A DNA stretch of 64,000 bases, taken from a virus. The stretch lies in the IMG/VR virus record IMGVR_UViG_3300047510_003392, positions 1 to 64,000 of that record; one strand, 5' to 3'. Below the pieces are notes generated by a model. The model saw only the letters and a list, made by a program, of their open reading frames with translations, was not told where the DNA came from and did not search any database. This document shows positions 14,609 to 63,422 of the stretch, piece by piece (the stretch's first letter is position 1; the number at the start of each line of letters is the position of its first letter). The translations under genes and the position numbers were made by a program.

Positions 14609-15429
14609 AGTTTTTCAAGTATTTTATCCACCGCTTGGAATATATTGTATTTTTGACGAAAGCCAAGATTTCTTATCTTTTCACAATCCATAAAGAAGTT
14701 CGGCGCTTGAACTATTTGATGAAACTCTGGTACGTCAACATATGTTATTTTACTCGTTGAGCCAGTCTTTTTGATTACATAGTCTAGAATATCTATCAGC
14801 TTTATACTTTCTTCCGCGCCTATGTTATATATTTCATTAAACTTTCCACTATATGTCGCCAAGTTTATGGCCGCACATACATCTTCAACGTGCATAAAGT
14901 TTCTGTAATTGTCGCCCTTGTATATGCTTACTGGATCGTTTCTGACAATGTTTCCGATGAGATACTCCAGTGCGTTTTTCTTTTTTCCTGCACCAACATC
15001 TCCGCCAATTACATTACACAAACGTAATATTCTATAATTTCTGTGGAATGTGCGGCAAAACGATTCTGTCAGATCTTCGGCGGTTTTTTTAGTTATTGAA
15101 TAAAATCCCTTGGGATTGCACGGATCTCCTTCTTTGGCTGGGCGATACTTGGTATACCCCTCACCATATACAAACCAACTACTTACAAAGTTGAATGTGC
15201 CTTGAACATTTGGCAATACATCCATTAGCTTATTTAGATTAGTATTGATATCCTTATGGAGATCGTCGAATAAATGATAGTTGTGAGTGGTGCTAATAAG
15301 ATATAGCACATCTCTCATATTCTCAGACCAATTTTCATCACGAGGCATTATTATGCTTTTTTGTGGATATAGTTTGGCAAAATTACTGCCAACAAATCCT
15401 GAACCGCCAAATATTGTTAGTTCGTCCAT
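14605..15429 (-). CDS. NAD-dependent epimerase/dehydratase
   Basis: Start set at ATG 15429 (MDELTIFGGSGFVGSNFAKL) giving 274 aa; the nucleotide-binding GGSGFVG then sits at residues 8-14, where the extended SDR fold needs it, and the ATG overlaps the previous stop by 13 nt. The catalytic pair appears as YSITK (YxxxK, about 115-119). EIYNIGAEESIKL and FHQIVQAPNFFMDCEKI are late-family features. Directly downstream of the RfbH-type gene, so it probably reduces or epimerises the 3-deoxy sugar product. Confidence 0.8.
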   Translation of the reverse strand: MDELTIFGGSGFVGSNFAKLYPQKSIIMPRDENWSENMRDVLYLISTTHNYHLFDDLHKDINTNLNKLMDVLPNVQGTFNFVSSWFVYGEGYTKYRPAKEGDPCNPKGFYSITKKTAEDLTESFCRTFHRNYRILRLCNVIGGDVGAGKKKNALEYLIGNIVRNDPVSIYKGDNYRNFMHVEDVCAAINLATYSGKFNEIYNIGAEESIKLIDILDYVIKKTGSTSKITYVDVPEFHQIVQAPNFFMDCEKIRNLGFRQKYNIFQAVDKILEKL

Positions 15430-16727
15430 GTTGATAATACAGTTTCGATATGATTTAGATTGTCCGACGATATTGTTGGTGCACATCCCACGAAGAATAC
15501 AAGATCAAGAACTTTATTTGATTCTGGGTATTTCTTATAGTCGTCAAGATGTTTGTATCCATTATGCACGAGCAGGTTTCCAGCAAAATAGTTTCTCGTC
15601 TGTACCCCATTCTTTTCCAAGAATGCAACAAGCGTTTCTTTTTGCTTTCTATCTCTGCAAATAATTGGGACACCAAAAGGAACCCAATCTGTTTCGGCGA
15701 ATGTGTTTGGAAAATTCAAACCGTCAACATATTTCTTCAATGTAGATTGTATTGCATCCTTATTAGATTGTCTTGTCTTACAGATATAATCAAGTTTCTT
15801 CAACTGCTCCAAACCTATAGCAGCTTGTAGGTCCAATGGTTTCAGGTTCCAACCAATTCTGTTGAATACATATTTGTGGTCGATGATAAGCTCTGGGAAC
15901 TCTGGTAGCCAGTTTGAGAATCTCTTATTACACGAACCATTGCACAGCAAGTTTGCTGCCCCCACGCAATAGCAATCTCTACCCCAAGTACCAAAGCTTC
16001 TGGCCAAGTCAACAATTTCCTGTATATCCGAGGATACCATTCCACCTTCAAGTGTTGTTATTTCGTGTGCTGGATAAAAAGAACAACTGGAAGCTATGGC
16101 GTATTCGTTTAGATATTTTCCGCGCCACTTGGAACCGAGAGAATCGCAATTATCCAAAAGGAGTCTCAGGTTATGCTTTTTAGTAATAGCAAGCATTTCA
16201 TCCATGTCAGGAGGATTTCCCAATACTGGACTCAAAAATACTGCCTTGGTTTTTTCAGTTATCTTTTCTTCGATCTTTACCAAATCAAAATTCAATGTAG
16301 ACCATTCAATGTCTATAAATACGGGCTTTAGATTATTATGTACAATTGCAGATACGGTGGTTGGAAATCCTACCGCAGAAACAATGATCTCATCCCCATC
16401 TTTCCATCCAAAATATTCCTTGCACGCCGCAATAAGCAATAAGTTGGCACTCGATCCGCTATTGCAGAAGAATGAAAACTTGTTATTGATATGTCTTCCG
16501 AACTCTCTTTCAAATCTTGCACAAGTTTCTCCGGAAGAAGACCACTTTCCAAATAACAGTGTTTCTATGGCAGCTACCAGTTCGCTGTTATCAAAGTATG
16601 GACCTGAATAGTATACCTTCTTTTTGTCTTTTGCCACTATATTGTGAGCAAACTTTGGCACAAATCCATATTTGGATGTCATGCTTTCTATGAATTTAGA
16701 AATATCTTCTTTTTGATTGTTTTCCAT
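15417..16727 (-). CDS. rfbH: CDP-4-keto-6-deoxyglucose-3-dehydrase (E1, RfbH/DdhC type)
   Basis: A 436-aa protein of the PLP aminotransferase fold. The usual PLP lysine is His221 (SFYPAHEITTLEGG), the hallmark of the 3-dehydrase branch. The cysteines C194, C252, C254 and C262 give C-X57-C-X1-C-X7-C, exactly the spacing reported for the [2Fe-2S] centre of E1. GRDCYC...NKRF and DHKYVFNRIGWNLKPLDLQA follow the family. It would remove the C3 hydroxyl of CDP-4-keto-6-deoxyglucose on the way to 3,6-dideoxyhexoses, O-antigen tip sugars. A flavin reductase (E3) is not in the window. Confidence 0.88.
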   Translation of the reverse strand: MENNQKEDISKFIESMTSKYGFVPKFAHNIVAKDKKKVYYSGPYFDNSELVAAIETLLFGKWSSSGETCARFEREFGRHINNKFSFFCNSGSSANLLLIAACKEYFGWKDGDEIIVSAVGFPTTVSAIVHNNLKPVFIDIEWSTLNFDLVKIEEKITEKTKAVFLSPVLGNPPDMDEMLAITKKHNLRLLLDNCDSLGSKWRGKYLNEYAIASSCSFYPAHEITTLEGGMVSSDIQEIVDLARSFGTWGRDCYCVGAANLLCNGSCNKRFSNWLPEFPELIIDHKYVFNRIGWNLKPLDLQAAIGLEQLKKLDYICKTRQSNKDAIQSTLKKYVDGLNFPNTFAETDWVPFGVPIICRDRKQKETLVAFLEKNGVQTRNYFAGNLLVHNGYKHLDDYKKYPESNKVLDLVFFVGCAPTISSDNLNHIETVLSTWTN

Positions 16728-36537: not shown

Positions 36538-36891
36538 ATGTATAAACTATTTCTTGATGATGTAAGAGAACCGGAACAAGTGACTTGGGTAAAACTACCA
36601 GATGGTCCTTGGGAAATTGTGCGTAACTATGGTCAATTCGTTGAGCATATCTCAAAGAATGGTATTCCATCATTTGTTGCCTTTGACCACGACCTTGCGG
36701 AAGAGCATTATGGTGCTAACCCAAGAAGTGAATTCAAAGAGAAAACGGGATATCATTGTGCCAAGTGGCTGATTGAAAAGTGTATGAACGAAGACACAAA
36801 CTTTCCGCACTATGTTGTTCATAGCATGAATCCCGTAGGAAAGATGAATATCACCAGTTTGGTTGAAAACTTCAAGAATACCATCAAGTGA
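36538..36891 (+). CDS. Cyclic-phosphate-processing receiver-like (cPPRec) protein
   Basis: A 117-aa protein: KLFLDDVREP at the start, VAFDHDLAEEHYG in the middle (FDHDL, Asp/His metal-type site) and YVVHSMNPVGKMNI at the end, the set of motifs in the receiver-like family proposed to process cyclic phosphates in RNA repair. Receiver fold length fits. It is first of three coupled plus-strand genes, with the next start overlapping its stop (GTGA). Confidence 0.72.
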   Translation: MYKLFLDDVREPEQVTWVKLPDGPWEIVRNYGQFVEHISKNGIPSFVAFDHDLAEEHYGANPRSEFKEKTGYHCAKWLIEKCMNEDTNFPHYVVHSMNPVGKMNITSLVENFKNTIK

Positions 36892-37553
36892 AGAAGTTAT
36901 CATTCAAGAGTTCTGAGCAAAAGATATGGTTTGTGTCCGACTTACACGTTGGACACAACAAGCCATTTATATTAAACCCTCGCTTTTACAATAATGTAAA
37001 TGAGGCAGTTCAGCACACTTTTGATATGATGTATAGTCATATTGGTCCAGATGATATACTATTCAATCTTGGCGATATGGTATGCGGTGCAGGCCAAGCT
37101 TCAGAAGAATATGCCAAAAGAGTGGTAAATATACCTTGTAAGCAACATTACTATATTTGGGGCAATCATAGTGCTGGCATCAAGGGGTTATATGACAAAG
37201 TAAGAAATGATATTGGCTTGCTTGCAGATGACATTGATATGTATCCTCTTCCATATCCAAATAGTCCATTTATTTTTCTTGGACATTATGCGGAAGTATT
37301 CATTGATAGCACGCCAGTTGTATTGACTCATTATCCTATTGCTTCGTGGAATCATATGGGGGATGGTGGGTATAATATCCACGGTCATTGTCATAGAAGC
37401 ATGAAAGAGGATAATAGTCTTAAGCGTCTTGATGTAGGATGGGATTGGAAAAAGCGACCTGTTGAATGGAATGAGATTGTGCGAGAACTTAAATCAAACA
37501 AGTTTAGCCCAGTGGATCATCATGGTGCAGACACCAGTTCTTTTTTTGAATAA
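36888..37553 (+). CDS. Calcineurin-like metallophosphoesterase
   Basis: A 221-aa protein with GTG start overlapping the previous TGA. IWFVSDLHVGH, ILFNLGDMVCG, YIWGNHSAG, and IHGHCHRS supply the usual D-x-H, GD, GNH and GHxH metal ligands of this phosphoesterase family. Substrate unknown; the neighbours suggest a nucleotide or RNA cyclic phosphate, ADP-ribose derivative, or similar. Cytoplasmic. Confidence 0.8.
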   Translation: MKKLSFKSSEQKIWFVSDLHVGHNKPFILNPRFYNNVNEAVQHTFDMMYSHIGPDDILFNLGDMVCGAGQASEEYAKRVVNIPCKQHYYIWGNHSAGIKGLYDKVRNDIGLLADDIDMYPLPYPNSPFIFLGHYAEVFIDSTPVVLTHYPIASWNHMGDGGYNIHGHCHRSMKEDNSLKRLDVGWDWKKRPVEWNEIVRELKSNKFSPVDHHGADTSSFFE

Positions 37554-43070: not shown

Positions 43071-43499
43071 TTATGCATTTACATTAAGTTGTAATGTACA
43101 TTTTTGTATGTTTGTGGCCGCAGTTGGCACATAAAACGAAATAATGTCATTAGCAGCAATAGAAGATGTGCTCCATGTAGTAACATCATCACTTGAAGCC
43201 TTTAATGAGCCACTAATAGTTGGATATCTGCTAGAAGAACCTGGCATAGAGTTATTTTCTGTTGGTGGATAATTGTCATATGTTGTTTTCCATATATCAA
43301 TTGATATAACTCCGGTTTGGTCGGCAAACATTTTCCAAGATTTTATTACACACGCTCTTGGAACTTGAATAAATCCATAAGTTCCAGGTGCAATAGGAAA
43401 CCCGCCCCCATCAAGTGATATACCAATTCCGTTCAAGCCGGGCGACATAGTATAACTTGATGTTGCTGCGTATTTGGATGCGATGGGAACTATGCTCAT
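43071..43499 (-). CDS. Phage fibre/hinge-type protein (142 aa)
   Basis: Start set at ATG 43499 (MSIVPIASKYAATSSYTMSP). An ATG at 43550 would prepend residues encoded by AT-rich control DNA. GSFxLGIxxGxxPIxxGTYG-type core: LDGGGFPIAPGTYGFIQVPR, then CVIKSWKMFADQTGVISIDI WK, close to collar or receptor-binding modules. A TATATTTATA element lies 17 nt upstream. Leads the fibre operon. Confidence 0.6.
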   Translation of the reverse strand: MSIVPIASKYAATSSYTMSPGLNGIGISLDGGGFPIAPGTYGFIQVPRACVIKSWKMFADQTGVISIDIWKTTYDNYPPTENNSMPGSSSRYPTISGSLKASSDDVTTWSTSSIAANDIISFYVPTAATNIQKCTLQLNVNA

Positions 43500-43516
43500 A
43501 TTATAGTAATAATATA

Positions 43517-43526
43517 TATAAATATA
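43517..43526 (-). promoter_or_regulatory. TATATTTATA element before the fibre operon
   Basis: Exact TATATTTATA on the minus strand, 17 nt before the ATG at 43499. Confidence 0.5.
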
Positions 43527-43533
43527 AAAAAAT

Positions 43534-43557
43534 AGGGCAGATTTTATCATCTGCCCT
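43534..43557 (-). terminator. Terminator of the exonuclease gene
   Basis: GGGCAGAT and ATCTGCCC with loop TTTTAT-type; minus strand continues ATTTTTTTA. Confidence 0.75.
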
Positions 43558-44435: not shown

Positions 44436-44445
44436 TATAAATATA
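44436..44445 (-). promoter_or_regulatory. TATATTTATA element before the exonuclease gene
   Basis: Exact copy on the minus strand, 3 nt before the ATG at 44432, the tightest spacing with an ATG together with the copy at 925. Confidence 0.5.
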
Positions 44446-44712: not shown

Positions 44713-45519
44713 TTATTCTGGTGCAATAAATCCAACCTTCTCCACGATTTCTTTACCTTTTGGACTTAGTGTAAACTCTATAAACTTTGCTGCTTGAGGA
44801 CTTGGTGCTGCATTTACATAATAAAATGTTGGACGAGCATATGGATATGTTTTCTTTAGTATAGACTCCTTGGTTGGCAAAGCATTATCAATCGGCACAA
44901 CTTTTATGCCGGGTGATTTGATATATGCCAATCCAACATAACCAATGGCATTTGGATTTTTACTTACTTCAGCGAGGATTTGTTCATTGCCAGCCAACTT
45001 TTGTGATGACTTTACATAATCACGCTTGTTCATTGCCATTTCCTTGAAGTCGGAATATGTGCCAGAAGATGTATTTCTGGTATAGATTGAAATCTTACCT
45101 TGCTTTCCACCAATCATAGCCCAATCAGTTACATCGCCTGTAAATATTTGTTCTATTTGGCGGCGAGATAGTTTGGCTATTGGATTTTTTGCATTCACGA
45201 TTATAGCCATTCCATCATATGCGACGATGATTGGCTTTAGTGTGACGCCTTTTGATGCTGCGGTAGACATTTCGGTTGCCTTTGCTCTACGAGAACTCAT
45301 TCCAATGTCTGCTGTGCCATCAATAATAGCAGACAATCCAGTTGTAGAACCTTCGGCGGCAATTTCAAATGCAACATCTTTGTTGAATGTTTTGTACTCT
45401 TCAGCAAGTGTAGGCACAAGCTTTGCTCCAAGCGTATCTGATCCTTTGATAATCAGTTTCTGGGAATAGCCTATTGGGGCGATTAGCAATGCGATTAGTG
45501 ATATTAGTATTTTCTTCAT
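44713..45519 (-). CDS. pstS: Phosphate-binding protein PstS
   Basis: A 268-aa periplasmic protein with a Sec signal (MKKILISLIALLIAPIGYSQ). KGSDTLGAKLVP, EGSTTGLSAIIDGTADIGMS, and IYTRNTSSGTYSDFKE hold the residues that coordinate phosphate in this family; the TSSGT block is diagnostic. It captures phosphate for the host PstCAB transporter. Just 6 nt after the phosphate porin gene, so both are expressed from the same Pho-box-like region. Known as an auxiliary gene in some cyanophages. Confidence 0.9.
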   Translation of the reverse strand: MKKILISLIALLIAPIGYSQKLIIKGSDTLGAKLVPTLAEEYKTFNKDVAFEIAAEGSTTGLSAIIDGTADIGMSSRRAKATEMSTAASKGVTLKPIIVAYDGMAIIVNAKNPIAKLSRRQIEQIFTGDVTDWAMIGGKQGKISIYTRNTSSGTYSDFKEMAMNKRDYVKSSQKLAGNEQILAEVSKNPNAIGYVGLAYIKSPGIKVVPIDNALPTKESILKKTYPYARPTFYYVNAAPSPQAAKFIEFTLSPKGKEIVEKVGFIAPE

Positions 45520-45525
45520 AATATA

Positions 45526-46761
45526 TTAGAACTGAATTTGTAGTTGCGAACGAACTCCGCGTGTTGTGGCTTTGGTTGTATTATTCTTTACTTCGCCAGA
45601 TAATGCCCCAAGTTGGAACTTCATATCTTGACCTCTGATATACCAGTTTGCTCCAACATAATATTCATTGAAAAGGTTCATATTTGCTGAAGCTGGTGCT
45701 GAACGAACAACATCGCTTAGATTTACTCCACGGTTGTCTGTATCAAGACGCTGATATCTAAAAACAAACTCAATGGTTTCATTGAAATATACCGTAGGTT
45801 GAACAAACCAACCATATGGGCTTGCATCATTATTTCCTGCACCTTTGTCAATATTGGCATACAGATATTCTGCCATCAGAGTATATCTTAGATATGATAC
45901 GTCAAGATATAAAGAGTGTATGCTCAAATCATATCCCTTTCCTATGTTGGATACTCCAAATCCACCTTGGTCTGGTAATATACCTATGCCATATCCAATA
46001 ATAGCATTTCCATTTTCAGGCAGCTTGGCGGTAAATCCAACATTTCCCCATAATGCCTTTTTGTTGTTGCCTGCATTTCCAGATGAAGAAGCACCAGCAA
46101 ATGTTTCATCTCTTTGTGGGTTTGTTATTGCCGCACTATATACAAGACCATATTTGTTTGTTAGTTCTTTTTTACCATCAACAAATACTCCTATACGATA
46201 GCTTGCTGCACCCAATCTTCTGCCATTGTTGCTTTCAACGAAATATCTTGTTACTCCAGAACGTTCTATTGAACGTAGATTGCCGCTGGTTGCTCTTTCT
46301 TCGTATGCGACATTTACTTTTCTAAGACCAAAGTTAAAAGTCAAATCTGGCGTTGGTTTATATTCTACAATAGCGTCGTCATATCCACCACTCGCAAAAT
46401 CATACGTCATTGTTGCTCCCCAGCCAGCACCTACGCCAGCCTTGAGTGTAAAATACATACGGCGTGTAAAAAACTGGTCAGTATATGCTGGCTTGGCTGC
46501 GGTATGAACATCTGTGCTTAGATTAGCATACTGAAGTTGCATTCTCATACCTACGCTCAATCTATCCGTGGATTTTCCGCCAGCGATGGCTTGTGATGGT
46601 ATTGTATTATTTTCTCGCACCAAATCAGCACGTATATCTTCTGCCTCCTGATTGGTTAGAATACCTTTTCGTATAAGTGCTTCAATAAGAGCACCGCTGT
46701 CTTGAGCGAGAGAAGGTATGATTAGCAACGCAAATATCAATGGATATAGAATTTTCTTCAT
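45526..46761 (-). CDS. Phosphate-selective porin (OprP/OprO family)
   Basis: Start set at ATG 46761 (MKKILYPLIFALLIIPSLAQ, signal peptide), 411 aa. After a short helix (ALIEALIRKGILTNQEAEDI) comes the barrel: FTLKAGVGAGWGATMTYDFA, LRKVNVAYEERATSGNLRSI, MAEYLYANIDKGAGNNDA and a C-terminal QLQIQF strand. The layout is that of the porin O/P family, which admits phosphate across the outer membrane. It precedes pstS and has the Pho-like repeat upstream. Confidence 0.82.
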   Translation of the reverse strand: MKKILYPLIFALLIIPSLAQDSGALIEALIRKGILTNQEAEDIRADLVRENNTIPSQAIAGGKSTDRLSVGMRMQLQYANLSTDVHTAAKPAYTDQFFTRRMYFTLKAGVGAGWGATMTYDFASGGYDDAIVEYKPTPDLTFNFGLRKVNVAYEERATSGNLRSIERSGVTRYFVESNNGRRLGAASYRIGVFVDGKKELTNKYGLVYSAAITNPQRDETFAGASSSGNAGNNKKALWGNVGFTAKLPENGNAIIGYGIGILPDQGGFGVSNIGKGYDLSIHSLYLDVSYLRYTLMAEYLYANIDKGAGNNDASPYGWFVQPTVYFNETIEFVFRYQRLDTDNRGVNLSDVVRSAPASANMNLFNEYYVGANWYIRGQDMKFQLGALSGEVKNNTTKATTRGVRSQLQIQF

Positions 46762-46777
46762 ACATCCATACATAGCG

Positions 46778-49486: not shown

Positions 49487-49840
49487 TTATTTCGTCAAGA
49501 ACTTTCTACGATAAACTGCATATCCCAATCCAATCATTCCTGCAAACAATGCATATGTAGACGGTTCAGGTACAGCAGGACCGCAATAATCTTTATCATA
49601 ACCACCTCCGCCGCCATAATATGGACGCTTGTATTTATCGTCATCATCGTCATCATCGTCATCATCTTCATCGTCATCATCCCAATCATAACTGCTGCTC
49701 ATACTAATCATCTGCACAGGGTCTGTATATGACGGCTGAAATGTGCTCATAATATCATAATTACCAAAATCTACAACAGAGTCATTGGCAAAAATGCCGC
49801 TAACAAACATAGTAAAGATAAACAATAGTTTCTTATTCAT
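49487..49840 (-). CDS. PEP-CTERM protein with Asp-rich region (117 aa)
   Basis: Signal peptide (MNKKLLFIFTMFVSGIFA), a stretch of about fifteen near-contiguous Asp at roughly residues 53-68, a Gly/Tyr run, then VPEPSTYALFAGMIGLGYAV and RRK. The VPEPSTYALFAG + helix + basic end is the PEP-CTERM sorting signal recognised by exosortase in Verrucomicrobiota and Proteobacteria. Here it predicts membrane/surface processing by host exosortase. The acidic run could bind calcium. Its mRNA is predicted leaderless (-10 TATAGT ends 8 nt before the ATG). Confidence 0.8.
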   Translation of the reverse strand: MNKKLLFIFTMFVSGIFANDSVVDFGNYDIMSTFQPSYTDPVQMISMSSSYDWDDDDEDDDDDDDDDDKYKRPYYGGGGGYDKDYCGPAVPEPSTYALFAGMIGLGYAVYRRKFLTK

Positions 49841-49907: not shown

Positions 49908-50354
49908 TTATATCTTATAATCTTCGTGCTGTATGCTCTTTAGATTATTGTGTATATAATCTACCCAATAATCAAGTTCGTGTGATTCATCTACTTTCAA
50001 ATGATATTCATTTGGTTGCGTAAACAACTTTGTTGTATCACTAAAATCTCGCACCGGTTTTCTTGCCATTAATATTACATAAGCATCTTTGGCTCCAAAT
50101 GCTTCTCGTGCTGCTGCTGTAGGACATACAAAATCTGCTATGGCATATACACCTGTTCTATTTACGATATCGCACAATATGCCCATTCTTTTTGCGTGTT
50201 CTATTCTATCAGCTACATCAAAAGTAAGATCTTTATTTATTTTGGCTCTTATTTCATCGGCATTGAAATGAACAGCGTTCATTGCTTTTGCCAACGCAGT
50301 AGATAATGTTGTTTTGCCCGAACCGGGTAGTCCCATAACAAGTATTTTTTTCAT
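49908..50354 (-). CDS. APS-kinase-like P-loop kinase
   Basis: A 148-aa protein. ILVMGLPGSGKTTLSTAL is the P-loop (G8-T16), FNADEIRAKINKDLTFDVAD matches the Asp/Arg substrate segment of APS kinase (CysC), and IADFVCPTAAAREAFGAKDA fits its DFSP-type block, though the family's usual cysteine and lid residues are not complete. CysC makes PAPS from adenylyl sulfate. It is followed after 43 nt by a sulfotransferase, so PAPS supply is an attractive role; a nucleotide or polynucleotide kinase is an alternative. Confidence 0.6.
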   Translation of the reverse strand: MKKILVMGLPGSGKTTLSTALAKAMNAVHFNADEIRAKINKDLTFDVADRIEHAKRMGILCDIVNRTGVYAIADFVCPTAAAREAFGAKDAYVILMARKPVRDFSDTTKLFTQPNEYHLKVDESHELDYWVDYIHNNLKSIQHEDYKI

Positions 50355-50397: not shown

Positions 50398-51102
50398 TTA
50401 CATCCACTTGCCATAAATTTTATAATCTTCCGCATATCTTTTTTTTACAAATTCTTCTATAATTTTTGATGTCTCGTACTTCTCTACTTTGTTGCTATTG
50501 AAATGAAATTTTGGTAATGACTTTGCACTTTTTTCTTCCATATATTTTTTAACCTTATCCATTTCATTGATATTGAATATATCCGAAAACACAGTTGGAT
50601 CTCTGCCAATACTCTGTACAATAGAGTTGGTGTGACTGATTGCTTTTTTCCAAGCCATTTCACGATCTGAGGTTTTTGTTTTTATTCCACGAATAAATTC
50701 TTCTACACTTATATATTTTCCAAACACATTATGTCGCATCACAAGATGAGTATATGCACTATAAAATCTAGAAAGAGGGTCACGGATAACACAAAAAGAT
50801 TTGGTACTGTCGTTTTTTTTACGACGACGAGGTATTTCCAAATGCTGCAATCGCTTGATTATTCTTCTTTGGATTGGAGATTTTCTTTTTAGCATCGCTC
50901 TGTCAACCGCACCATTATAAGTGGAAAATTCCACATTCATGTCAGATATTTTTTCGTTATTGACTTTGGCAATTGCCTCTATTTCTTTATATACTCCATC
51001 ATCGTTAATGAGTTCAATCCATCCATTGATGGTAGTGTTACCACATTTAAACAAACGATAATACAAAAGTTCATCGGGTATTACTTGAATTATTTTTGGC
51101 AT
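50398..51102 (-). CDS. Sulfotransferase family protein
   Basis: A 234-aa protein. LFKCGNTTINGW (about 18-29) fits the PAPS 5' loop, and SFCVIRDPLSRFYSAYTHLV (about 102-121) the 3'-phosphate loop with the RDPxSR signature. FHFNSNKVEKYETSKIIEEF is a common C-terminal segment. It would sulfate a sugar from PAPS. Neighbours are the APS-kinase-like gene and a glycosyltransferase (12 nt upstream). Confidence 0.75.
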   Translation of the reverse strand: MPKIIQVIPDELLYYRLFKCGNTTINGWIELINDDGVYKEIEAIAKVNNEKISDMNVEFSTYNGAVDRAMLKRKSPIQRRIIKRLQHLEIPRRRKKNDSTKSFCVIRDPLSRFYSAYTHLVMRHNVFGKYISVEEFIRGIKTKTSDREMAWKKAISHTNSIVQSIGRDPTVFSDIFNINEMDKVKKYMEEKSAKSLPKFHFNSNKVEKYETSKIIEEFVKKRYAEDYKIYGKWM

Positions 51103-52305: not shown

Positions 52306-53298
52306 CTATTTTTCAATTAAGTTTTGTTTGAATATTTTCCAGCAGTTTTCCCAAGTCCAATATGAACCATTCATCGCAACTATATCACGGTTTAGTTTTA
52401 GCGATTTGTTGATACAATCTTCAAGATTATCTCCCATATATCCAGTCAATCCATCTTGAACAATATCTATTGGACCAGAAACAGGATATGCTGCTATTGG
52501 CGTGCCTAAACTCATTGCTTCTATCAAAACTATACCAAATGTGTCTGTTTTGCTGGGAAAACAAAATACATCCGCGTTTATATATTCATTTGCTAAATCT
52601 TTTCCGGTTTTGTATCCAAGGAACTTTACATTTTTATATTTTTTCTCTAAATGTTTTCTATATGGGCCATCACCAACCAAGCGAACTTCATATTTGTCTT
52701 GTAGAACACACAAGTCATCCAGATTTTTTTCAAGGGATATTCTGCCAACATATAGCACAACAGGAACTTCATTATTTTTTCTTTGCGTTGTTGGCGTCAG
52801 CAGATTTTTATCAACACCTCTTGTCCATATAACCATATCAACGTCAAAATTGTTTTTACTCAGTTCATTCATCATTGACTTGGTAGTAACCAATACTCTG
52901 CCAGAATGTTTATGAAACCATCTTACATAAGAATATGTGATACACTTTGGTATTTTATACATTTCATTCACATACTCTGGAAACTTTGTGTGATATGAAG
53001 TGTTGTATTTGTATTTCTTACTATCACAATATAGTTTGGCGAAAAGTCCAAGCGGACCTTCGGTGGAAATATGAATATAGTCTGGATTGTATTCTTCTAT
53101 CTTTTTTCCTAATCCGAATGGCAGGCTCATTTTTACTTCTGGATATCTTGGCATACTAAAATGCTTATACATTTCCGGTGAAATAAAGCATACCGTATAT
53201 CCATCATTTTCCGCCTGTATCTTTATATTCTTGTATGTAGTTACAACGCCGTTTATTTGCGTGAAAAGATTATCCGTTACTATTAGTATCTTTTTCAT
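52306..53298 (-). CDS. agt: GT-B glycosyltransferase, Agt-like (phosphate-stress glycolipid synthesis)
   Basis: A 330-aa enzyme: NLFTQINGVVTTYKNIKIQA, ISTEGPLGLFAKLY, YHTKFPEYV, RWFHKHSGRVLVTTKSMMNE, WTRGVDKNLL, and donor site CFPSKTDTFGIVLIEAMSLG then PVSGPIDIV. This run of motifs is that of the DgdA/SqdX/Agt class that glycosylates diacylglycerol or a similar lipid. It overlaps the PlcP-like gene by 29 nt. Membrane association is not obvious from sequence; it probably docks peripherally at the inner membrane. Confidence 0.72.
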   Translation of the reverse strand: MKKILIVTDNLFTQINGVVTTYKNIKIQAENDGYTVCFISPEMYKHFSMPRYPEVKMSLPFGLGKKIEEYNPDYIHISTEGPLGLFAKLYCDSKKYKYNTSYHTKFPEYVNEMYKIPKCITYSYVRWFHKHSGRVLVTTKSMMNELSKNNFDVDMVIWTRGVDKNLLTPTTQRKNNEVPVVLYVGRISLEKNLDDLCVLQDKYEVRLVGDGPYRKHLEKKYKNVKFLGYKTGKDLANEYINADVFCFPSKTDTFGIVLIEAMSLGTPIAAYPVSGPIDIVQDGLTGYMGDNLEDCINKSLKLNRDIVAMNGSYWTWENCWKIFKQNLIEK

Positions 53299-54037
53299 TA
53301 TAGTGTATCAACTCAAATGTTCCATTATGGTGTTCTACTATGGCGGTCAATGATTCTACCCAATCGCCGCAGTTCATATAATGAACATCATTTATATGTT
53401 TCATTTCTGGATGATGTATATGACCGCATATTACGCCAACATATCCTTTTCTTTTACAATGATTGGATATATTAGTCTCAAACTTGAATATGAAATCAAC
53501 GGCCTTTTTGACGCGATGTTTTAGATATTTGCTGAAACTCCAATAACCAAATCCAAGTTTATGTCTTATCCAGTTATATTTTGTATTTAGTGCAAGAATA
53601 AAGTCATATCCTTTGTCTCCAAGAAAACTAAGCCACGGAGCCAATCTTGTTATACCATCAAATAAATCTCCGTGAACAACAAGATATTTTTCACCATATA
53701 CACTAATATGTTCTATTTCATTACATAACTTGATGTTTCCTACTTCAAGTTCATATGGCAGCATCAACCTGAAAAACTCATCGTGATTGCCAATAACATA
53801 TACTATTTTGGTATCATTACGATGTAGTTTCAACAATCGTCTAATAACTTCAGAATGGCTGTTTTTCCATTTTGACCTGTTTTGCTGAAACTTCCAACCG
53901 TCTATGACATCACCGACAAGATATAGAGTCTCGCAACTGTTACATTTTAGAAAATTTTCTACCTCTTTCGCCTTGCTATTTTTAGAACCGAGATGCAGGT
54001 CGGATATAAAAATAGAGCGATATTTAGGTAGTTTCAT
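53270..54037 (-). CDS. plcP: PlcP-like metallophosphoesterase (phospholipase C, lipid remodelling)
   Basis: A 255-aa calcineurin-fold protein. FISDLHLGSKNSKAKEVENF, TLYLVGDVIDGWKFQQ, IVYVIGNHDEF, LVVHGDLFDGITR, GVICGHIHHPEMKH and YMNCGDWVESLTAIVEHHNG follow the PlcP family (D-x-H, GD, GNHDE, HGD, GHxH); LpxH lacks the CGDWVES end. PlcP cleaves phosphatidyl lipids to diacylglycerol, saving phosphate; the adjacent Agt then makes glycolipid. Coupled to agt and, upstream, to a small T4-like gene. Confidence 0.75.
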   Translation of the reverse strand: MKLPKYRSIFISDLHLGSKNSKAKEVENFLKCNSCETLYLVGDVIDGWKFQQNRSKWKNSHSEVIRRLLKLHRNDTKIVYVIGNHDEFFRLMLPYELEVGNIKLCNEIEHISVYGEKYLVVHGDLFDGITRLAPWLSFLGDKGYDFILALNTKYNWIRHKLGFGYWSFSKYLKHRVKKAVDFIFKFETNISNHCKRKGYVGVICGHIHHPEMKHINDVHYMNCGDWVESLTAIVEHHNGTFELIHYNEKDTNSNG

Positions 54038-54340
54038 TTAGTCCGCTTTATCTCCAAACATAAACTTGTTGGCAATAACATCTATGTTATGAAATGCTAT
54101 GCTAACCTTATCTATCATCCAAGGGTCTAACTTTACAGTTTCACTTGCCATAATCTCTTTTATACGCTTACACTTTTCTTCTATGGCAGTTAGTTGATAT
54201 TCAATCATATCCTGCTGGCGTTCTGGATTTAGTTCAACGTCATCCTTTATCATTTTCTGTCCCTTGAACCAGTCCTGATCCATTGCGGCTGTTTCTTCTA
54301 CAATTTCACGAATAAGTGCTTTAAGTTCTGATTTCTTCAT
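54038..54340 (-). CDS. Conserved phage protein, MKKSELKALIREIVEE type (100 aa)
   Basis: Start set at ATG 54340 (MKKSELKALIREIVEETAAM): the longer frame from 54475 would cross a terminator and the promoter-like element. The N-terminal motif is very common in T4-like phage proteins of unknown role, often structural or scaffold-related. The rest is helical and acidic. It precedes plcP without a gap, so they may be co-expressed. Confidence 0.6.
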   Translation of the reverse strand: MKKSELKALIREIVEETAAMDQDWFKGQKMIKDDVELNPERQQDMIEYQLTAIEEKCKRIKEIMASETVKLDPWMIDKVSIAFHNIDVIANKFMFGDKAD

Positions 54341-54368
54341 ATAATAATAAATATATACACCAAACAAA

Positions 54369-54394
54369 AAAACCCAGCATTTACGCTGGGTTTT
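54369..54394 (-). terminator. Terminator of the FHA-like gene
   Basis: AAAACCCAGC and GCTGGGTTTT, loop ATTTAC; minus strand continues TTTGTTTGG. Confidence 0.8.
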
Positions 54395-54419
54395 CGTGAG
54401 TTGATATATATTAACTATA

Positions 54420-56384
54420 TCAAGGCTTTGGAGGCAGGAATGTGCCTGTACCAGCATTGACTGGATATACTCCACTCAAGTTGGCAGCAAAACTCAATGC
54501 ACTCAAATCTGTTACTCCCTTGGCATTGAATGTAAGTGCCGAGGTCTTTAGCAGATTGGACAGCGTGATACTGCCACCCGCAGTCAGGGTCAAGGGGCCG
54601 ACCACAGAGTTGGTCGCCTGTGCAGATGTATTGAAGATGTCCGCACCGCTGGTGACGCTAGTAACGCCGCCGTTCAATAGACCAATGTTAGCAGAAGCAA
54701 GTTCAACAACATTGATTGCACCGGTACCAGTAGTGATAGAGATCAAGCCAAAGTTGTTGTTTGGCTGAGTCAGTGCCACTTCAGCATTGTTGGTGTTTAC
54801 AGTAACATTACCACGAACATCAGCAGATGTAGCAGGTACTTGAGTAACTGTGGAGCCCTCAAGACCAACTGTAGATACAGTCAAGTTACCACCAACAACG
54901 GTAGTACCAAGAACTGTGCTGCGAGCCTGTGTGATATTAGCATCAGCAGTAGCAGTTAGCGTAACATTACCGAGGTTGTTTAGACCAGCAGGGTCGTTAA
55001 GAGTAACATTGCCACCAGACAGATTGCTAGTAGCAGCAGTCACACGGCTAGTAGCCAGCAACTGTACGATGTCGTTCTTGCTAGCAGCAACCAGATTGCC
55101 AGTAACAGCAACACGGTTCAAGTTCAGCGTAGCGTCTTCAAGGATAGTAGCATTACCACCAACGGTCAGACTTACAGGACCAAAACTGTGCTTGGCGCGT
55201 GTAATATTAGTGTCGCCAGTTGTAACAAAGGCTGTTGGACCGTATACGAACAGTCCTTCAGCACCATCAACGATGCTAGGAGCGGTGAATGTAGTGTTAC
55301 CTGTGCTAGCAATAGCAACCTTATTCAGCGAGACGCGGGAGTTGGCAGATACATTAGTATCACCAGTTCCGCTGCTGGCAACATCAGTAAGATTTACCAT
55401 GTTACCAGACAATGTCAGGTTACCAGAAGCAAGTGCGGTATAGTTAGTAGTAGCAGCAGTGCTGGCTACAACAATATTGTTACCAGACACAGTCACATTT
55501 GTGCTAGAAACTCTGGGTAGAGAAATGTCCTTACCAGACACAGCCAGATTAGCAACATTGAGTGTACCAGTTCCCTGCGTAACTGCACCAGCAGCAATAT
55601 TACCGGTGGCATTGATAGTGATGTTACCCGTGGATGTAATAAATCCATTCGGAGCAATCACGACGCTTCCGCCAGATGTAGACACATCAGTCTTGCCGTT
55701 GAGCACCATGGGAGCAGATGCAGACGAGCCAATCGTGGCTGTGCCACCATAGGTATTGACAACAAGGTTACCAGTTACTACAGCACCACCGATATTAGCA
55801 GCACGCGAAGCAATTGTGATGCTGTCACCAACAGACTGAATGATGGCACCATCATTTACAGTGACACCGTTAACCAGAACGCTGGTGGGTAGATTGTCTT
55901 GGCTGGGCAACTTACCATTGGTATTCCAGTATCCAAGAGATACAGTGGGATCATCCACAGTGCTAACATACAGTCCAGCAACATTGATGGTGCTGGTGCC
56001 GCCGATCAAAACGCCGCCCGGATTAAGGATAAACACTTTGCCATTGGACTCAATAGCACCGTTGATTGTAGATGCTGCTCCGCCAGTAACAATGTTTAGA
56101 ACAGATGAACCGGCAGACGGCAGTGTATATTCGATGCGTTCACCCGTATTGAATGTGCTTGTACCGCTACCAAATGCCTGCCAAGACAACACGGCCTTGT
56201 TTGGTGCAGAAACATTCAGCGTGGTCGCTGTTCCTGTTACATTTACACCCGTTGTGGTTTGTAGATTGCTGACATCAATGCTAGGAATAGCAAAGACATA
56301 ACCAGCGAATACAAACGCCATGAACAAAGAAAAAGTCTTTGTCCAAAACGAGTTATTTCGTGTATTAGTATTATTGTATTTCAT
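54420..56384 (-). CDS. Filamentous-haemagglutinin (TPS-domain) exoprotein (654 aa)
   Basis: Signal/N-terminal region (FWTKTFSLFMAFVFAGYVFA), then the TPS/hemagglutinin domain: TSTFNTGERIEYTLPSAGSS, INGAIESNGKVFILNPGGVL, IGGTSTINVAGLYVST, followed by a long beta-helix of Val/Thr/Asn repeats (NITVSGNNIV, GNLTLSGNMVNL). This is the secreted half of two-partner secretion or a cell-surface adhesin; no transporter (TpsB) is in the window, so the host would supply one. Unusual for a phage; possibly taken from a Verrucomicrobiota host. Confidence 0.72.
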   Translation of the reverse strand: MKYNNTNTRNNSFWTKTFSLFMAFVFAGYVFAIPSIDVSNLQTTTGVNVTGTATTLNVSAPNKAVLSWQAFGSGTSTFNTGERIEYTLPSAGSSVLNIVTGGAASTINGAIESNGKVFILNPGGVLIGGTSTINVAGLYVSTVDDPTVSLGYWNTNGKLPSQDNLPTSVLVNGVTVNDGAIIQSVGDSITIASRAANIGGAVVTGNLVVNTYGGTATIGSSASAPMVLNGKTDVSTSGGSVVIAPNGFITSTGNITINATGNIAAGAVTQGTGTLNVANLAVSGKDISLPRVSSTNVTVSGNNIVVASTAATTNYTALASGNLTLSGNMVNLTDVASSGTGDTNVSANSRVSLNKVAIASTGNTTFTAPSIVDGAEGLFVYGPTAFVTTGDTNITRAKHSFGPVSLTVGGNATILEDATLNLNRVAVTGNLVAASKNDIVQLLATSRVTAATSNLSGGNVTLNDPAGLNNLGNVTLTATADANITQARSTVLGTTVVGGNLTVSTVGLEGSTVTQVPATSADVRGNVTVNTNNAEVALTQPNNNFGLISITTGTGAINVVELASANIGLLNGGVTSVTSGADIFNTSAQATNSVVGPLTLTAGGSITLSNLLKTSALTFNAKGVTDLSALSFAANLSGVYPVNAGTGTFLPPKP

Positions 56385-63412: not shown

Positions 63413-63422
63413 TATAAATATA
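63413..63422 (-). promoter_or_regulatory. TATATTTATA element
   Basis: Exact copy on the minus strand, 20 nt before the ATG at 63392, just downstream of a TTTTTATATATACG (63423-63436). Confidence 0.45.

Follow-up and report, generated by a model that had tools for sequence, protein, structure and literature searches.

A phage plcP-agt gene pair predicted to turn host phospholipids into glycolipids, and its relatives across viral genomes

When phosphate is short, bacteria use two enzymes to remove phospholipids from their membranes and put glycolipids in their place: PlcP, an Mn2+-dependent phospholipase C that hydrolyses phosphatidylethanolamine and phosphatidylglycerol to diacylglycerol, and Agt, a GT4 enzyme that transfers glucose, galactose or glucuronate from a UDP-sugar to diacylglycerol. 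Lipid remodelling by PlcP and Agt is known in bacteria (PMC4796936, PMC8231724, PMC8528852). In Pseudomonas aeruginosa, PlcP and Agt1 were both validated by mutants, and Agt1 by heterologous expression as well (PMC8528852). Agt of SAR11 has also been validated (PMC4796936, PMC8231724), and mutagenesis of the SAR11 enzyme GTcp identified its donor, catalytic and diacylglycerol (DAG)-site residues (PMC8231724). Here we analyse a pair of genes related to plcP and agt in viral DNA, namely bases 1-64000 (hereafter the window) of the IMG/VR virus record IMGVR_UViG_3300047510_003392, which is 73,233 bases long. The window has 37% GC and is densely coding, with a transfer-messenger RNA (tmRNA), eight tRNAs and numerous glycosyltransferases. 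The two genes are the following:

53270-54037, minus strand: plcP, 255 amino acids, ATG start; PlcP-family metallophosphoesterase, predicted phospholipase C yielding DAG
52306-53298, minus strand: agt, 330 amino acids, ATG start; Agt/GTcp-type glycosyltransferase of family GT4, predicted diacylglycerol glycosyltransferase

The second gene lies directly downstream of the first and overlaps it by 29 bp; both open reading frames (ORFs), and the fact that they overlap, agree exactly with the original prediction, made from the letters of the window. PlcP homologues are held by more than 130 other IMG/VR stretches, and the ratio of nonsynonymous to synonymous substitution rates against close relatives is approximately 0.05-0.06 for plcP and 0.11 for the glycosyltransferase, meaning strong purifying selection on both genes. 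Because of these homologues and low ratios, the two frames are not chance ORFs.

The phage phosphoesterase is 48.8% identical over 246 amino acids to PlcP of P. aeruginosa (the PlcP and Agt1 references used were the plasmid copy of the PA3219-PA3218 region), and 43-44% identical to PlcP of Sinorhizobium meliloti, which is encoded next to sinI/sinR-like genes. It carries the whole motif set that had been claimed for it, i.e. DLHLG, GD..D, GNHDE, HGD..D, CGHIHH and the terminal NCGDWVES. In an alignment of 36 PlcPs, these motifs are invariant or almost so, and the dinuclear metal site and core motifs (D13, H15, D46, N84, H122, H206 and H208, GNHD and GDWVE) are strictly invariant. GenBank and virome annotation would instead make this protein LpxH, a UDP-2,3-diacylglucosamine diphosphatase modifying lipid A. 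Phage homologues do carry that name, the top NCBIfam models are those of LpxH, and the fold is the same: the AlphaFold model of the phage protein (predicted local distance difference test, pLDDT, 82) finds only LpxH-type phosphoesterases as best PDB folds. However, its scores are far under both curated LpxH cut-offs (56 vs 134 bits, and 42.8 vs 190 bits), and far under that of YfcE (29 vs 56 bits). The genuine P. aeruginosa PlcP scores as low on the LpxH models, so the name 'UDP-2,3-diacylglucosamine diphosphatase' in the databases has been passed on by annotation without being justified. The family motif GNHDE, in which GNHD is invariant, stands where E. coli LpxH has GNRD. Finally, maximum-likelihood trees placed the phage protein within the PlcP family, beside the proteins of P. 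aeruginosa and S. meliloti, with E. coli LpxH outside it, on a very long branch of its own. An LpxH or YfcE identity was thus ruled out by cut-offs, motif and tree, and activity as LpxH on lipid A appears extremely improbable to us. The original prediction had asked where the phosphoesterase would group; it groups with characterised PlcPs, and by its sequence it is a PlcP-family member.

The GT-B assignment of the second gene was borne out by two Pfam families (PF00534, 1e-24; PF13439, 8e-12), which place it in GT4. The protein is 36.8% identical to P. aeruginosa Agt1 over 329 amino acids, that is over its whole length, and 47% identical to an Agt relative from Pelagibacteraceae (L119), which is among the most similar cellular glycosyltransferases. 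Within the Agt group, made up of the GT4s encoded beside plcP in bacteria, the viral GT4s cluster as one clade (100/100), whereas four GT4s that merely share contigs with plcP fall outside that group (100/100). The Agt-type identity that had been proposed is therefore what the tree gives, apart from other GT4s. All 14 functional residues of GTcp are found in the window protein: G17, G81, G84, H103, T159, R160, R186, K191, D252, T253, F254, G255, E260 and W316. Their numbering was taken from the Pelagibacteraceae protein L144, which has the expected letter at all 14 positions. An AlphaFold model (pLDDT 93) has the GT-B fold, and its nearest folds are GT4s of the BshA/MshA/PimB type. Taken from its sequence, the window enzyme is an Agt-like GT4, predicted to glycosylate DAG.

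We then looked at how constant the pairing is. In IMG/VR, 133 relatives of the window phosphoesterase were found, the best 80 of which (61-99% identity) were analysed. A glycosyltransferase follows plcP in 73 of these 80 loci, 29 times an Agt-type GT4 and 44 times a member of a different family, GT2 (PF00535). The GT2 gene is directly downstream in 43 loci, and in L012 comes after a spurious ORF on the opposite strand. The remaining 7 loci comprise 5 with no glycosyltransferase and 2 in which plcP lies at the end of a contig or is followed by a gene on the other strand. The search was also run in reverse, with an alignment-based scan for GT4 relatives, as a single-sequence scan gave mostly near-identical copies. 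Among the best 80 GT4 loci, plcP is directly upstream in 64 and within about 1.3 kb in 10 (some of these have a homing-type endonuclease or another gene inserted after plcP), 5 are contig ends and a single one has no plcP. For the best 80 GT2 loci the corresponding figures are 75 with plcP directly upstream and 4 contig ends. A second viral PlcP set, of the type found in Pelagibacter phage Mosig, has 45 GT4 and 14 GT2 partners among 80 loci. The plcP-Agt order is also that of bacteria, in 38 of 80 cellular loci. In a 372-kb phage, a homing-endonuclease-like gene (GIY-YIG type by sequence, L206:2381-3001) sits exactly between plcP and agt.

These counts bear on another explanation, in which the PlcP homologue does supply DAG while the glycosyltransferase acts elsewhere, on phage surface glycans, lipopolysaccharide or DNA, the two genes being mere neighbours. 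Glycosyltransferases of other kinds abound in the window, and approximately 44 of the 80 viral loci have, in place of the GT4, a GT2 with no assigned acceptor. Against this stand the membership in the Agt clade with the functional residues kept, the adjacency to plcP found in both directions of search, and the same gene order in bacteria whose DAG glycosyltransferases are proven; we hold a different acceptor to be very unlikely. Supply of UDP-glucuronate by a nucleotide-sugar dehydrogenase beside plcP (L021, L026) was considered too, and set aside as it concerns only a few loci with no glycosyltransferase.

The 26 dereplicated IMG/VR PlcPs form a single clade (93/90) inside the PlcP tree. Its closest cellular sequence there, from a Methylotenera metagenome-assembled genome, is on a long branch, and cellular PlcP relatives reach at most 51% identity among the matches listed. 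GT4 and GT2 partners are mixed across this viral clade, which takes at least 4 exchanges, with the gene order kept throughout. Since the class of the partner was swapped at a fixed position, the second enzyme is likely to do the same kind of job in both cases, using the DAG made by PlcP. The GT2 partner, 236-240 amino acids long (L052:4829-5542, L018:8746-9456, L057:8737-9444, L077:8904-9623, and about 40 more loci), is a candidate for a new class of diacylglycerol glycosyltransferase, with no close solved relative.

Host contamination of the viral collection was rejected for the PlcP-glycosyltransferase family because about 20 pair-bearing records carry a terminase, many of them 125-372 kb long. 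The terminase is found in six of them (G004, G007, G012, G023, G026 and G031), and over cut-off in 14 further records, of up to 372 kb, drawn from the sets of GT4, GT2 and Mosig-type loci. In the 73-kb record of the window itself, no match to Terminase_6N was found and the hallmarks are weaker ones; an exonuclease sought as a link between the window and the terminase-bearing records was found only in close relatives of the window. A 'phage' record with plcP, MT836169, was left out, its neighbouring genes being bacterial housekeeping genes.

Two genes related to phosphorus, 6 bp apart from each other, are found at a distance of about 6 kb from the pair:

44713-45519, minus strand: pstS, phosphate-binding protein (TIGR02136, 231.8 bits vs a cut-off of 206.6, 1e-68)
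45526-46773, minus strand: outer-membrane protein resembling phosphate-selective porins O and P (PF07396 Porin_O_P, 36 bits vs a cut-off of 20.9)

Both had been noticed in the original reading of the window, and both score over the cut-offs of their NCBIfam and Pfam families. More generally, pstS is beside plcP or within a few kb of it in 29 loci, often as plcP-glycosyltransferase-pstS or pstS-plcP-glycosyltransferase on one strand, and in the cultured Mosig plcP adjoins pstS. Such a plcP-GT2-pstS run on one strand is present in very large phages, at L077:8001-10687 (a 320-kb record) and in L078. A fatty acid desaturase of DesA type accompanies the pair at a short distance in 13 of the first 80 loci; this second lipid-modifying gene is close to plcP-GT2 at, for example, L030:7200-7946 and L044:10234-10935.

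For the module, the analysis shows family identity, conserved catalytic residues, the overlapping order, purifying selection, repeated linkage to pstS and, in many phage lineages, a near-obligate pairing. The catalytic activity, the acceptor and the sugar of the phage enzymes we infer. PlcP would cleave phosphatidylethanolamine and/or phosphatidylglycerol of the host into DAG and a phosphorylated head group, and Agt would glycosylate this DAG. The resulting glycolipid would replace the phospholipid, so that the bilayer stays intact, and membrane phosphorus, in the form of phospho-head groups, would become open to use by host and phage, including phage DNA synthesis. Phage PstS and the phosphate porin would concurrently raise the import of phosphate. 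We consider it probable that plcP-agt is such a lipid-remodelling operon, converting phospholipid into glycolipid with the freed phosphorus going to phage DNA. Phosphorus recovery from the host membrane, which we infer to be the benefit, is well motivated. One genome of 369 kb contains approximately 738,000 phosphorus atoms, a burst of tens of genomes requires tens of millions, and this need is about the same order as the number of phospholipid molecules per bacterial cell.

The same enzymes could serve another purpose, the membrane being rebuilt in its charge, curvature or surface, with phosphorus release as a by-product; the aims might be a block to superinfection, an altered lysis, or membrane for phage compartments. 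The pair is strictly together with pstS linked in a minority of loci only, a desaturase beside some pairs points to membrane properties, and phage attachment in Ruegeria is affected by lipid type (PMC9938194). On the other hand, pstS and the phosphate porin in the window phage tie the module to phosphorus, as do the direct plcP-glycosyltransferase-pstS and pstS-plcP-glycosyltransferase runs in other phages. We find it unlikely that rebuilding is the main purpose, while granting it more weight than the two alternatives above.

Several points weigh against phosphorus recovery by lipid remodelling. The linkage to pstS just mentioned is that of a minority. What PlcP releases is a phospho-head group and not free phosphate, therefore a further host step is needed, and the host may already be able to make glycolipids. 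The putative lipid-binding lid of PlcP (residues 128-144) is modelled at a pLDDT below 50. Lastly, a Pho-box-like site was not found near the operon, the window as a whole having 11 sites for 11.2 expected; this means that regulation differs from that of the bacterial pathway. Control by PhoB is a trait of the bacterial copies that does not define the enzyme.

Upstream of plcP lie a small ORF, a promoter-like motif and a hairpin, listed here with a more distant gene that carries the same motif:

54038-54340, minus strand: leader ORF of 100 amino acids (MKKSELKALIRE...), whose TAA abuts the ATG of plcP
54347-54355, minus strand: promoter-like motif TATATTTAT, just upstream of the start codon of the leader ORF (54340)
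54368-54395, minus strand: hairpin resembling an intrinsic terminator, between the unit and the gene upstream of it
43071-43550, minus strand: gene for a virion structural protein-like product (phrog_10330, 4.5e-14), with TATATTTAT at its 5′ end (43518-43526)

A homologue of the leader ORF is directly upstream of plcP in L002-L009, where an equivalent hairpin with a T-run and a TATATTTAT element occupy the same places. These loci thus keep the same succession of hairpin, motif, small ORF, plcP and agt, with PlcP identity down to 72%. The motif has 13 copies in the window for 3.0 expected, a 4-fold over-representation that none of 100 shuffles equalled. Many genes have one of its sites (e.g. 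43518-43526, 44437-44445, 54347-54355, 63414-63422) a short way upstream, and in several cases the site immediately follows a terminator hairpin. Judged from this pattern, TATATTTAT is probably a phage promoter element, perhaps a late one, and its position at the virion structural gene hints at late co-expression with the plcP-agt unit. The T4-type late promoter TATAAATA was tried as well: its enrichment is mild (18 vs 9.4) and it is absent from the 45 nucleotides upstream of starts, so that TATATTTAT is the better candidate. The leader ORF is probably the first gene of the plcP-agt transcription unit, and the most plausible reading of the stretch from hairpin to agt is a single phage transcription unit, which may be a late one. 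Expression would take place during infection, probably late, and from a phage promoter rather than under PhoB.

Other features of the window are listed here as observations. Around the pair, there are a protein with a TPS-secretion domain (filamentous haemagglutinin-like, 54420-56384), a small protein with a PEP-CTERM-like tail (49487-49840), and genes of sulfotransferase-family and APS-kinase-like type (50398-51102 and 49908-50354, with L181:5041-5793 as a further case); these last hint at sulphated glycans or lipids, or are simply relatives of nucleotide kinases. A second phosphoesterase, distinct from plcP, is at 36888-37553 on the plus strand (phrog_547). The phage tmRNA (35830-36210, tag AKRNLAKTSFLSVSRKSEVAVA) adjoins a GT25 gene, and a sugar aminotransferase of RfbH/PseC type (15417-16727) lies inside a block of glycosyltransferases and methyltransferases, at about 7000-27500.

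Taking the loci together, we lean towards the view that membrane mining in large phages is the work of an ancient, modular system, with one PlcP lineage and an exchangeable GT4 or GT2, often accompanied by pstS and a desaturase. Conversion of phospholipid into glycolipid during infection would pay the phosphorus cost of a large genome and retune the membrane. The system would have been overlooked in virome surveys because its PlcP was labelled LpxH. Among viral auxiliary genes, 'lpxH' has been recorded for offshore waters (PMC10653327) and for Lake Baikal, alongside stearoyl-CoA desaturase (PMC9611531), and these catalogued genes probably belong to the present PlcP family. The module also suggests a re-reading of 'viral lpxH' in virome catalogues as plcP. 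If the proposal is true, membrane-harvested phosphorus is a nutrient source to be added to infection models, infected cells in phosphate-poor water are predicted to become glycolipid cells, and viruses would leave a signal in lipid chemistry. The exchange of GT4 for the unrelated GT2 at one position also points to a candidate for a new class of glycolipid synthase.

Concerning phage isolates, only Pelagibacter phage Mosig and Synechococcus phage S-SRM01, both in GenBank, have the phosphoesterase at convincing identity; their plcP homologues come with no Agt and are labelled UDP-2,3-diacylglucosamine hydrolase or diphosphatase. Scans of the phage collection for the glycosyltransferase gave nothing close, and no isolate with the pair was found. 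No report of phage PlcP or PlcP-Agt was found in the open-access literature, subscription papers and preprints being largely outside this search. The original prediction knew of no established phage example: this holds for the pair in the open-access literature, but not for plcP alone, already present in GenBank phages.

Among the closest known systems, the PA3219-PA3218 pair of P. aeruginosa has the same order on one strand, overlapping or abutting genes, and full-length homology of 49% and 37%. That pair is regulated by PhoB through a Pho box (PMC8528852), whereas the phage pair lacks a Pho box and has a promoter-like motif of phage type instead. GTcp/Agt of Candidatus Pelagibacter sp. HTCC7211 (SAR11) has the 14 tested functional residues in common with the phage glycosyltransferase, but SAR11 PlcP-GTcp is cellular and host-controlled, while the phage proteins are in clades of their own. 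PlcP of S. meliloti and of Phaeobacter sp. MED193 belongs to the same family as the phage protein; at the S. meliloti locus that was examined, no Agt gene adjoins plcP, unlike at the phage locus. LpxH has in common with phage PlcP the metallophosphoesterase fold, at 16-22% identity, and differs from it in clade, active-site motif and pathway. In Mosig, plcP is beside pstS with no adjacent Agt, unlike in the window phage. The phosphorus genes pstS, phoH and phoA are known in cyanophages and pelagiphages, where they are host-like and raise phosphorus supply. To our knowledge, the phage phosphorus genes described so far act in uptake or sensing only; the plcP-agt module would, in contrast, mine the membrane itself.
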